Shown piece after piece: positions 18,545 through 42,363 of a stretch of 51,830 nt of DNA. The notes beneath the pieces were generated by a model. It did not search any database and was not told where the DNA came from. It saw only the letters and a list, made by a program, of their open reading frames with translations. Source of the DNA: Clostridia bacterium (lineage in GTDB: Bacteria; Bacillota; Clostridia; RUG12999); the NCBI GenBank assembly GCA_017467445.1, contig JAFTSG010000014.1, positions 83,198-135,027 on the forward strand, given 5' to 3'. The position numbers and the translations under genes were made by a program. Position 1 is the stretch's first letter. Each line of letters begins with the position of its first letter.

Positions 18545-19183
18545 CTATTTACTCTTTTTAATGCGTTTTTTACAAAGATGCGCAATCGGACATATTTCGC
18601 ACTGCGGCGAAATTGCTTTGCACACTGCACGTCCGTGATATACAAGGCAATGACAAAACCCAGCGCTTGTAGACGGGTTTAATATTTTCATAAGGTCAAA
18701 CTCTATTTTTGCAGGGTCGGTATTATCAGTAAGACCTATACGGTAAGCAATTCGTTTTGCGTGGGTATCAATAACAACTGCAGGTTTATTATACACATCG
18801 CCGAGAATTATATTAGCTGTTTTTCTGCCCACACCGGGAAGAGTGAGTAGTTCGTCCATGTTATCCGGTACAACGCCGCCAAAATCCGTAAGGAGTTTTA
18901 TGCAGCAGCCTATTATATTTCTTGCTTTATTTCGAAAAAAGCCCGTTGAATGAATATAGCTTTCAAGCTCAGTTACATCAGCCTCGGCAAAATCCTTGGC
19001 TGTTTTATATCTTTCAAACAAAGCAGGTGTTACAAGGTTTACCCTTGCGTCGGTGCACTGCGCCGCAAGCTGTGTTGCAATTAAAAGCTGCAGTGGATTT
19101 TCAAAATCAAGCGAACATTTTGCATCCGCATAAACCCTATTAAAAATCTTTTCAATTTCTGCTGCAATTTCTTTTTTTCGCAA
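18545..19183 (-). CDS. nth: Endonuclease III (base excision DNA glycosylase/AP lyase)
   Basis: Removes oxidised pyrimidines and cleaves abasic sites. The 212 residues show the helix-hairpin-helix LLTLPGVGRKTANIIL with the catalytic Lys in GRKTAN (~119) and the catalytic Asp in VIDTHAKRI. The C-terminal 4Fe-4S cluster is C-H-C...C...C-E-I-C-P...C (~186-205). The start is TTG at 19183 with AGAGGTGA upstream and a family-like N-terminus MRKKEIAAEIEKIF. No ATG is available nearby. First gene of the repair operon, driven by the promoter at 19223-19252. Confidence 0.95.
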   Translation of the reverse strand: MRKKEIAAEIEKIFNRVYADAKCSLDFENPLQLLIATQLAAQCTDARVNLVTPALFERYKTAKDFAEADVTELESYIHSTGFFRNKARNIIGCCIKLLTDFGGVVPDNMDELLTLPGVGRKTANIILGDVYNKPAVVIDTHAKRIAYRIGLTDNTDPAKIEFDLMKILNPSTSAGFCHCLVYHGRAVCKAISPQCEICPIAHLCKKRIKKSK

Positions 19184-19222: not shown

Positions 19223-19252
19223 ATTGTACCACTAACAAGGGGCAAATGTCAA
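19223..19252 (-). promoter_or_regulatory. Promoter for the nth-uvrB-uvrA-gpsA-pdxK operon
   Basis: On the minus strand: perfect -35 TTGACA (19252-19247), 18-base spacer, -10 TACAAT (19228-19223). The leader before the TTG start is about 35 bases and contains AGAGGTGA. No SOS/DinR (LexA) box of the CGAAC-N4-GTTCG type was seen near it, so damage control of this operon is not indicated. Confidence 0.72.
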
Positions 19253-19263
19253 GCAAAAACCAA

Positions 19264-19493
19264 GGCTGAGAGAAAATAGTGCAGAATGGACAATTCTTCC
19301 GCCGAAGGCCTTGCCCGAAGGCGTACATCGGTACTCCGAGGGTGAAGGTTGTCCGTAGCATAAAGCGACAAATGAAAAAGGAGTTGCACCGGGGCAACTC
19401 CTTTCATTATTAACTTTGTATAAAAAACCATCATTTTGACAGCCACATCAAGCTTGTCTTCGCTTTATGCGGTCTGTGCATTTTATCTCAGCC
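19264..19493. repeat. Nested inverted-repeat element (possible MITE or structured RNA)
   Basis: Almost all of the 311-base gap between nth and the phosphatase gene is one folded unit. Outer arms are 19264-19284 and 19473-19493 (GGCTGAGA...TCTCAGCC, with a mismatch and small bulges). A second perfect 11-base pair is GCATAAAGCGA (19358-19368) with TCGCTTTATGC (19460-19470). An inner perfect 11-base stem is 19377-19387 with 19394-19404. Inside the left half a separate domain is closed by GGACAA/TTGTCC (19288-19293 with 19349-19354). It holds CTTC/GAAG, CGCC/GGCG and a TCGG-TACT-CCGA hairpin. The GC-rich left half differs from its AT-rich surroundings. Short reading frames here have no family resemblance and are ignored. 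It may be a non-autonomous transposable repeat or an untranslated structured RNA. Confidence 0.6.
19374..19407 (-). terminator. Probable terminator for the exopolysaccharide operon
   Basis: The innermost hairpin of the inverted-repeat element pairs AAAGGAGTTGC with GCAACTCCTTT around a six-base loop. On the minus strand it ends in five T (19379-19375 region). It lies about 90 bases after the phosphatase stop and is the only terminator-like structure there. It may primarily belong to the repeat element. Confidence 0.5.
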
Positions 19494-19494
19494 G

Positions 19495-20196
19495 TTACAG
19501 ATTTAATAATTTTTTTGCATTGGCTTCTATCTTGTCAATATATTCCTGCCCAAGATTTCTTCGAATATAAGCATAACCAATATCCATAAGCGAACATCTT
19601 GAATTCATATTATGCGCATCCGACCCTATAACATGAGCCATACCGTTTCTAAAAAGTTCGCATATAAAATCCAATTTGTCTCTTTTCACAAGAGAACCTG
19701 CATTTATCTGTATATACAGATTTTTTTCCAAAAGCTTAAGCAACAGGTCATTGGGGATACGGTCCACATATCTTTCAAAATGTGCTATTACTATATCCAG
19801 CCTCTTTTCCGTTTTTACAAATTCTATTACGTCAAGCAGTTCTTCATCCCATTCTTTAAGAGGCATTTCAAGCAGAATTGTTTTTGTGTTTTCAATGCAC
19901 AGCTCGCTGAAATCTTCTATTTCATAGAGATGTTTCTTCACCCTTACTTCAAACCCACGTTTGATTTCGGGGATTATAATATTTTCCTGTTTTGCATATG
20001 CAATCAGTTCTTCAATATTTTCATCACGTGCAGCAATCGCCACATGGGGTTTTGCTGCATCTGCATAATAATGCGGTGTTGATACTATGGTTGTAACGCC
20101 CTGTTTAGTGCTCATATTCAGCATTGCCAGCGACATTTCAATATCTTTTGCGCCGTCGTCTATATCGAATAGGAAGTGCGAATGGAAATCTACCAT
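19495..20196 (-). CDS. CpsB/YwqE-type tyrosine-protein phosphatase (PHP family)
   Basis: Manganese-dependent phosphatase that removes phosphate from the tyrosine cluster of the cognate BY-kinase and so controls polysaccharide export. About 233 residues of PHP fold: VDFHSHFLFDIDDGAKD at the N-terminus gives the first metal site (H-x-H). Further motifs are STPHYY, RGFEVRV, LLEMPL, DIVIAHFERY and the terminal HVIGSDAHNMNSR. The frame extends to a GTG at 20205, but that GTG is part of the GGAGGTG ribosome binding site. The ATG at 20196, eight bases downstream, is the better start. It follows the kinase gene by about 20 bases, the normal kinase/phosphatase pairing. Confidence 0.92.
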   Translation of the reverse strand: MVDFHSHFLFDIDDGAKDIEMSLAMLNMSTKQGVTTIVSTPHYYADAAKPHVAIAARDENIEELIAYAKQENIIIPEIKRGFEVRVKKHLYEIEDFSELCIENTKTILLEMPLKEWDEELLDVIEFVKTEKRLDIVIAHFERYVDRIPNDLLLKLLEKNLYIQINAGSLVKRDKLDFICELFRNGMAHVIGSDAHNMNSRCSLMDIGYAYIRRNLGQEYIDKIEANAKKLLNL

Positions 20197-20216
20197 AGAG
20201 TTCACCTCCGGAATGC

Positions 20217-40042: not shown

Positions 40043-40068
40043 GCCGCAATAAAAAAGCGAATAATACC

Positions 40069-40103
40069 AAAGGCAGAAACATTAATCGTTTCTGCCTTTT
40101 ATT
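40069..40103 (+). terminator. Terminator after purC
   Basis: Arms AAAGGCAGAAAC (40069-40080) and GTTTCTGCCTTT (40088-40099) with a seven-base loop and a following T-rich end. It stops purC before the converging blaR1-like gene. Confidence 0.9.
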
Positions 40104-40122
40104 ATGACAAATATTCAGTTCA

Positions 40123-42363
40123 TTAATCCCATTCCTCCAGATTTGCAGGCACCCATTCTTCGCCTTTCGGGTTTGCATTTGTATAAAATATTATTTTTCC
40201 GTTTTCATCAACTACCTTGAACTGATAGTTACCATCCTTCGGCATAAGATATTCGGCTTTGTATGTTTCATAATGCGGACTTCCGCTTTCTCTTGCCTCA
40301 ATTATATACTCAACTGTATCGGGGTCTTTATCGTAGTTTTTATCAACCTTTGTATAGTTAAATGTTGCTTCATTTCCGTTTTGTTTCCAGTTTGAAATGC
40401 GAAGGTCAAGAATTTCATAATGTGGTGAGTATATTCTGTAAAACGCACTGTGCAGATGTCCTTTTGCACTTTCATAAAGCGGGGACATTTTAAATTCAAA
40501 GCTTGTAAGCATCATATCAATATCCGACTCTGAAAAAGCATCTGTGTTAAAGAAAAGTACAACATATTCATTCGGTTTATCGGGATATTCAATAAAATAT
40601 CTTGTAAGTTTTCTTGGTACTTCGTGTGAGAGGTGTGACTGATATATCTTATCATTACGGTAGATTGTTTTATCATATCCGTAAACGTCCTTTGTTACCG
40701 AAAGACCCATATCGTAATGTTTTATGTCTTCAACCTTTACTTCTTCCGCAATACCCAGCATATCATCAGAGGTAAGTACAGAAATATCCGGATAATCTGC
40801 CACGTTTGGCACTATGTTTGTTGTCGGCATTACAAATTCAAATCCACCACCGACAAACCGCGAGCGGCTTGGTGCAAACGGATAGTCATTTCTTATAACA
40901 ATACCCTGTTTGTCTGTTGTCACAATTTTTATTCCGTTAACATATCCGGTTTCGGCAAGCTCAAGATAATACTCATTTTCTTCTCCCATAACAAGACTGC
41001 CGCTTCTCCATCCGCCGACAGTATTCCACAGCGGCTGTGCTATAGGCATTGTTTCAATTTTCTTTGCACCTTTTCTTACTCTGCCGTTTCGCAAGTTTAT
41101 TGTATAGTCGTCAAAAGCCTTTATTTCCTCTTCGGGACCGTAGTTTGTAAGCACCGCTGTTTTGCCGTCATTTGATACAGCTATAGAAAGCCCGACAGGT
41201 CCTTGTTGCGGAATACTGCAGTTCAGTTTGTTAAGGTCAAAGCTTCGTTCAATTTGCTTTGTTTCAAAGTTATATACAAAAAGTCCGTTCAGATAATGAA
41301 ATACCGCTTTTTCTTTATCGGCATAATCAATGTCCGCCATAATTGAGCCGACCGGACGTGATATATATTCGGCGTATGCCGCTTCGTCCATTGAATAGTC
41401 CTGCACCGAATTTGTAAGACATACTACTCCGACAATAATTGCAATAACAAGAATTACAGCTGTCCAAATAATAGTAGGTTTTTTAAATCCGGCAATATAT
41501 TTAATTCTGCGCTCTACTTCTTTTTCGCCGTTCTGAAGTGCGGTTGTTCCAATGGCAAACTTATTTTTACGAAGTGCAGTTTTGAGTAGCAGGCTTGCAT
41601 ATTCCTTTTTGCCGCCGGTAATTTTGAGTACTCTTTCGTCGCAGTACACCTCAACATCCTTGCGGAATGCGAAAAACGCATACCACATTATCGGATTAAA
41701 CCAGTTTATGCAAAGCATTGCCGCCGCAAGCCATATAAGAAAAATATCGTTATTTTTTAAATGGCAAAGCTCATGCATTATGATGCTTTTGTTTTCCTCG
41801 TCATCATAACCTGTCGGCATTACAATTTTGGGACTTATAATTCCTGCAAGCATCGGCACATCGCCCAATATAAGCCGTACATTTCTTTTTATGCCAAGTA
41901 CGTTTTTACATTCTTCCAGAATATTTAAAAATCCCTCATCGCTGATTTGAGTTTTCTTTTTTAAAGAACGCATATGCACCGCATATACCGAAATGAAATA
42001 TATAAATAATGCAGCTGCACCAATCATCCACACACCGTATATTATTTCAGGAAGATGCGTTGTTTTCTCTGGCAAAGCAACCACCGGCATTTCATCTTCC
42101 CCGCCGATTATATATGTATCTTCTATCCGAACAGGTTCAACCGGCACATACACACTTTCTGCTGCAGGCGGCGAATCGGGAATGGCGTTAAATACCGAAA
42201 TTTCACTTTGCGGCAAATCGGGAACAAGAAAACGCACCAGCAACAGCGCCCATATCCACATATGCCACTTTGCCGACATTTTTGTTTTAAACAGTCGTTT
42301 GAAAAGCAATATCAGAATTGCCGTAACTGAAACAAATACGGTCATTTCCATTAAATTTGTCAT
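40123..42363 (-). CDS. BlaR1-type M56 membrane metallopeptidase with unrecognised sensor domain
   Basis: A 746-residue signal-transducing protease. The N-terminal third has the BlaR1/MecR1 plan: membrane helices around 5-25, 33-50 and 106-130, zinc motif HELCH at 197-201, NPIMWYAFFAFRKDVEVYCDERVL (zinc-ligand Glu at about 238) and a fourth helix around 290-312. In BlaR1 the extracellular part is a penicillin-binding domain. Here residues 315-746 show no SxxK, SxN or KTG pattern and instead look beta-rich (KAVFHYLNGLFVYNFETKQI, GLSIAVSNDGKTAVLTNYGP), possibly propeller-like at first. The signal is therefore probably not a beta-lactam. Start overlaps blaI as ATGA. It should cleave or trigger loss of the neighbouring BlaI-type repressor. 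Confidence 0.82.
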   Translation of the reverse strand: MTNLMEMTVFVSVTAILILLFKRLFKTKMSAKWHMWIWALLLVRFLVPDLPQSEISVFNAIPDSPPAAESVYVPVEPVRIEDTYIIGGEDEMPVVALPEKTTHLPEIIYGVWMIGAAALFIYFISVYAVHMRSLKKKTQISDEGFLNILEECKNVLGIKRNVRLILGDVPMLAGIISPKIVMPTGYDDEENKSIIMHELCHLKNNDIFLIWLAAAMLCINWFNPIMWYAFFAFRKDVEVYCDERVLKITGGKKEYASLLLKTALRKNKFAIGTTALQNGEKEVERRIKYIAGFKKPTIIWTAVILVIAIIVGVVCLTNSVQDYSMDEAAYAEYISRPVGSIMADIDYADKEKAVFHYLNGLFVYNFETKQIERSFDLNKLNCSIPQQGPVGLSIAVSNDGKTAVLTNYGPEEEIKAFDDYTINLRNGRVRKGAKKIETMPIAQPLWNTVGGWRSGSLVMGEENEYYLELAETGYVNGIKIVTTDKQGIVIRNDYPFAPSRSRFVGGGFEFVMPTTNIVPNVADYPDISVLTSDDMLGIAEEVKVEDIKHYDMGLSVTKDVYGYDKTIYRNDKIYQSHLSHEVPRKLTRYFIEYPDKPNEYVVLFFNTDAFSESDIDMMLTSFEFKMSPLYESAKGHLHSAFYRIYSPHYEILDLRISNWKQNGNEATFNYTKVDKNYDKDPDTVEYIIEARESGSPHYETYKAEYLMPKDGNYQFKVVDENGKIIFYTNANPKGEEWVPANLEEWD

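Follow-up and report, generated by a model that had tools for sequence, protein, structure and literature searches.

A folded, non-coding repeat family of Clostridia, probably mobile, at the 3' ends of genes

At the end of an exopolysaccharide operon of a Clostridia bacterium (GenBank assembly GCA_017467445.1), 230 bases of nested inverted repeats lie in one intergenic gap. Are they a terminator, a structured RNA, or a mobile element that has settled there? A preliminary description, made from the window (the whole stretch of 51,830 nucleotides analysed; contig JAFTSG010000014.1, positions 83,198 to 135,027), had proposed a MITE or a structured RNA. Here we describe the fold of the element, its relatives in other genomes, the sites at which they lie, and the explanations that these findings favour.

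The window copy and the fold of its family

The element (19264-19493, plus strand, 230 bases, non-coding) lies between the 5' end of nth (18545-19183, minus strand) and the stop codon of a gene for a PHP-type phosphatase (php-like, 19495-20205, minus strand), an ORF at the operon end whose name rests on its own sequence and its neighbours. The arms of its outer stem P1 occupy 19264-19284 and 19473-19493, the latter adjoining the php-like stop codon; the outermost 14 nt of each (19264-19277 and 19480-19493) are 93% complementary, the pairing extends inward, and this helix 1 shows compensatory changes across the family. The P2 domain (19286-19354, helices 2-4), which holds the family's consensus and invariant columns, is closed by GGACAA and TTGTCC and contains two inner hairpins, P2a (in V1) and P2b, together with the invariant core CCCGAAG ... 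CGAG.GGTGAAG. P2b (19320-19337, GGCGTAC-ATCG-GTACTCC, helix 4) lies inside this core and is the most conserved part of the family. The P3 stem (helix 5) pairs its 5' arm (GCATAAAGCGA, 19358-19368) perfectly over 11 bp with 19460-19470, and its tip carries the variable insert V2 (19369-19459), which contains a hairpin at 19377-19404. All the nested repeats of the preliminary description are therefore present, namely the outer arms, the perfect inner arms and the hairpin. Its claim of a distinct composition also holds, in that GC content is 0.48-0.56 across 19246-19394 as compared to about 0.31-0.36 in the adjacent flanks (0.44-0.52 farther out, inside nth), and the rise coincides with the conserved two-hairpin domain. 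Folded as RNA, the plus strand (234 nt) reaches -92.4 kcal/mol with z = -7.8 relative to dinucleotide shuffles, and the minus strand folds less well (z = -5.8).

The covariance model of the family scores the window copy at E = 3e-13 and gives no other convincing match in the rest of the window. A weak match on the minus strand at 40048-40127 (15.9 bits, E = 0.1) is probably due to chance.

Copies of the family measure about 120-300 bp and fold on one strand into P1, the two-hairpin P2 domain and an optional P3/V2, in the order 5' arm, GAGAAAATAGTGCAGAAYGGACAAAC, V1 hairpin, CCCGAAGGCGTACATAGGTACGTCGAGAGGTGAAGTTTGTTCGTAGCATAAAGC, V2, GCTTTATGCGGTCTGTGCATTTTATC, 3' arm. V2 is about 90 nt long in most members (mean 88 nt), and other members have no P3/V2. 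The core of P2, CCCGAAG...GUAC-GUAC...CGAGnGGYGA, is almost invariant. Anchored parsing yielded 151 copies, 128 of them with both halves. The covariation set comprised 32 diverse copies, in which 89.6% of cells pair. This share falls to 35-46% when the partners are shifted by 1-3 columns, a comparison inflated by the fact that the structure was drawn from the same sequences. Changes on both sides were observed in 39 of 51 pairs (20 expected by shuffling) and in 171 cells (55 expected), and none of 500 shuffles reached as high, although these counts are no probabilities because the sequences are related. All nine pairs of P3 have changed on both sides, and the outer arms, albeit different in nearly every copy of one genome, still pair. 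Two of the checks proposed in the preliminary description, for multiple copies and for covariation, thus gave a positive result.

G-U pairs exceed A-C combinations in this set (106 versus 36) and, in a second set restricted to two well-aligned P2 pairs, by 66 to 1, which identifies the plus strand as the folding strand. A minus-strand RNA as the folded molecule is disfavoured by these counts and by the z-scores of the two folds. No Rfam 15 family matched at the gathering score, and E-value mode gave weak, chance-level matches only. We found no earlier description in a literature search that mostly did not extend to subscription journals, so a prior report is possible. The element is one copy of a folded, non-coding repeat family, previously uncatalogued and, in the best reading, structurally new.

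Range of the family and comparison with known repeats

Further copies turned up by DNA search in the window's own genome and in 8 of 60 relatives, and the family proved larger than the preliminary description had supposed. With the covariance model R1, the window's genome, which is 61% complete, contains seven copies, and matches occur in 58 of 391 sampled Clostridia species (34 genera, 14 families), with copy numbers that are lower bounds and weak carriers possibly missed since the scan scored seven candidates per genome. The distribution is patchy, even within the window's own family. A fuller search of five species of one genus (g57) gave 29, 59, 41, 33 and 38 copies, the highest number being in G119. 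A pattern scan of public genomes found at least 119 stretches, and the sources among the matches listed are uncultured Clostridia, Oscillospiraceae, and Clostridiales or Eubacteriales, mostly from the gut of herbivores. Under strict filters, nothing besides the window's own genome scored in a phylum-wide sample of 348 genomes, which suggests that the family is restricted to the class Clostridia, with the reservation that this sample itself includes some Clostridia. The phage and plasmid collections searched gave no match. Four IMG/VR contigs labelled viral (L197-L200) carry the core pattern and may be either phage or misassigned bacterial DNA.

Near-identical, recent copies lie at different sites in G142 and G054. 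In G054, such copies also form head-to-tail arrays with a period of about 242 bp (L050, L052, L053, L054). Several of these arrays stand at contig ends, so copy numbers in draft genomes are likely underestimated.

Integron attC sites are conserved in structure and variable in sequence, lie right behind stop codons, and fold on the antisense strand. The Clostridia family resembles them in placement and in the folded strand, but it has a different fold and no cassette array, and it lies at the native loci of housekeeping genes. REP/BIME sequences and the REPINs associated with RAYT are high-copy palindromes, some within 15 nt of stop codons, and REPs, 20-40 bp long, are mobilised by a trans-acting enzyme that recognises DNA in its folded form (PMC2817692, PMC3116915, PMC12306157). 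The Clostridia copies likewise are numerous and near stop codons, but they are branched folds of 120-300 nt rather than short palindromes with a GTAG-type tag, and show no association with Y1 transposases; a GTAG is present before P3, away from the element ends. Like prokaryotic MITEs, they are short, non-coding, multi-copy and dispersed, with AT-rich surroundings, inverted arms and stem-loops (PMC10969869). Unlike MITEs, they share no terminal sequence, in that the arms pair within a copy and are not common to the copies of one genome, near-identical arms being confined to the recent bursts in G142 and G054; nor was a consistent target-site duplication seen or a parent insertion sequence identified. 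The bcr1-bcr18 repeats of Bacillus cereus, 100-400 bp long, share with the Clostridia family a short length, an intergenic location, copy numbers in the tens, features of mobile elements, a stable structure and a frequent occurrence in untranslated regions (PMC6542083, PMC3446304). However, they are limited to the B. cereus group and linked to a TTTAT motif, whereas the present family spans 14 families of its class, and we saw in it neither a TTTAT-type motif nor any sequence relation to bcr repeats. We do not file the family as MITE, REP or attC because shared ends, target duplication, a parent element or a partner enzyme are not established for it. Bacteria commonly have short interspersed repeats, but few of these combine a branched fold and an invariant core with a distribution across a class and with a position and orientation that are fixed relative to stop codons.

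Placement at gene ends and turnover

By simple ORF calls, 99 of the 117 copies with an assignable 3' neighbour have it on the opposite strand, so that the copy adjoins the 3' end of that gene, at a median of 5 nt from the right-hand stop codon. The left neighbour is on the plus strand in 63 cases and on the minus strand in 45. The neighbours are ordinary housekeeping genes that fall into 141 clusters among 169 genes, and the idea of a preferred neighbour gene was rejected on this account.

The context seen most often is a pair of convergent neighbours (45 of 128). Such a setting would suit a bidirectional terminator or insulator that the host makes between convergent genes and that recombination spreads, the element itself being immobile, and in the G000 and G001 copies the V2 hairpin indeed has A/T tracts. 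For the window copy, where these tracts flank the hairpin on both sides, a role as terminator is plausible from the sequence, as a candidate only. As an account of the family, however, a host terminator is very improbable: many members have no V2, or no GC-rich hairpin at the V2 position, and at pgm in g57 a separate terminator is present beyond the stop codon and the element. Moreover, termination needs no invariant apical core.

Comparison of orthologous gene ends in g57, made by eye and with gene names read from protein sequences, shows both presence and absence. At dnaN, the element is present in G119 and absent in G164, G204 and G068, the last with an unchanged downstream gene. At pgm, it lies between the stop codon and the terminator in G119, G224 and G068, and is absent in G204 and G164. 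Two of five species have it at divIVA and all five at pyrH, and at serA in G068 only the two arms are left. Since orthologous ends carry the element, lack it, or keep its arms only, the family has been both gained and lost. Both flanking genes are common to 24 copy pairs among the g57 species and one is common to 56, mostly the right-hand gene. Copies at these shared sites often differ in the subtype of their inner domain, an indication of conversion or of turnover in tandem arrays, and local tandem duplication of copies is observed. For the window copy itself, the php-like orthologue in G001 (88% identity) is followed by a matching copy (L049); the relatives searched contain no close orthologue besides this one, and hence no empty site for comparison.

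The left edge has a feature of its own. A stem of at least 8 bp ending within 14 nt of this edge is found in 56 of 118 copies; at the right edge the number is 3, and among 294 random positions it is 30, although the compared copies are not independent and significance values for the position tests overstate certainty. In G142, whose copies are almost identical, six of seven bring with them both this hairpin and a spacer of 12 bases; the hairpin has been amplified with the element and thus belongs to the unit in that lineage. This weakens a targeting rule of insertion behind pre-existing terminators. On the left side of copies in G142 (L353-L358) and G054 (L050-L056), a terminator-like palindrome recurs, GGGGCTGTAAA...TTTACAGCCCC or GGAGCCGTAGCAAAA...TTTTGCTACGGCTCC, whose 3' arm resembles the 3' arm of the element, and the two may form alternative pairings.

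These findings bear on the possibility that the family is a functional structured RNA, made from the plus strand antisense to the 3' end of the neighbour, with a core that binds a protein and an action on that gene or in trans. The compensatory changes, the invariant unpaired core, the identity of the folding strand, and the occupation of the same gene ends across species would all suit such an RNA. However, no upstream promoter is evident by eye, the terminator-like hairpin at the left edge (56 of 118) would shield the plus strand from transcription, and the neighbouring genes are varied. Furthermore, 29-59 copies per genome, some in tandem, and loss at many orthologous sites speak against it, and we regard this explanation as unlikely. 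The expressed RNA considered in the preliminary description is not supported so far, the folding strand being antisense to the neighbouring gene.

Probable mobility and the search for a mover

Taken together, the dispersal in many copies, the near-identity of recent ones and the polymorphism of sites are best explained if the family is a structured, non-coding repeat of Clostridia that is mobile and behaves like a MITE or REP. We give this explanation a probability of roughly 0.7. Of the two identities first suggested, the MITE is supported in behaviour, in that the family is multi-copy, covarying, and gained and lost at orthologous sites, and so far not in its hallmarks, as neither a consistent target-site duplication nor a related transposase was found. 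The variation of the outer arms between copies of one genome, unlike the ends of ordinary transposons, speaks against mobility. The flanks inspected show no consistent direct repeat and no exact occupied/empty pair, the occupied and empty sites being too divergent to fix the insertion point.

No autonomous long version and no ORF between the halves was seen among incomplete copies, and no transposase recurs near copies. Using one profile and one cut-off for each enzyme, we found a group II intron reverse transcriptase (TIGR04416) in 15 of 58 carriers and 124 of 333 other species (p = 0.10, in the wrong direction), and a Y1 transposase (PF01797) in 24 of 58 and 165 of 333 (p = 0.26). At the cut-offs used, neither was found in G119 despite its 59 copies. 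Both enzymes were rejected as the mover, as their presence is not associated with the element. Retroposition, in which an RNA of the element would be copied back by a reverse transcriptase in trans that favours terminator-like hairpins as group IIC introns do, could account for the RNA-like fold and for the hairpin at the left edge. Nevertheless, the lack of association with the group II enzyme, its absence from G119, and the G142 hairpin, which is amplified with the element and so is not simply a target, make it quite improbable.

For a mobile repeat, we would propose that the folded core, most likely in the form of single-stranded DNA, is what a trans-acting enzyme recognises. The enzyme would carry the element to the 3' ends of genes, into the interval separating the stop codon from the terminator, where the element would do little harm and join the 3' untranslated region. 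In long-resident copies, purifying selection may preserve the base pairing, or copies may convert one another, or both processes may act. We tentatively favour folded single-stranded DNA as the recognised form over a functional RNA, since the folded strand is not transcribed by the neighbouring gene and no promoter is evident by eye. The full combination, a non-coding element found class-wide, recognised as a folded single DNA strand antisense to the gene, moved by an enzyme independently of group II reverse transcriptase and Y1 transposase, and directed into the few bases that separate a stop codon from its terminator, is a tentative proposal that we would rate well short of an even chance.

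With hundreds of copies and both occupied and empty orthologous gene ends, the family is a natural experiment, and its defined core could be used as bait for a binding protein or enzyme. Many housekeeping genes of gut Clostridia, moreover, receive from it an antisense segment, so far uncatalogued, in their 3' untranslated regions. At an aminopeptidase-like gene of g57 (L293, L371, L372, L381), the coding sequence ends within the element arm, whose TGA or TAA serves as the in-frame stop codon. Downstream of this gene in G204 (L381) lie tandem short degenerate units that resemble the element reduced to its outer stem.
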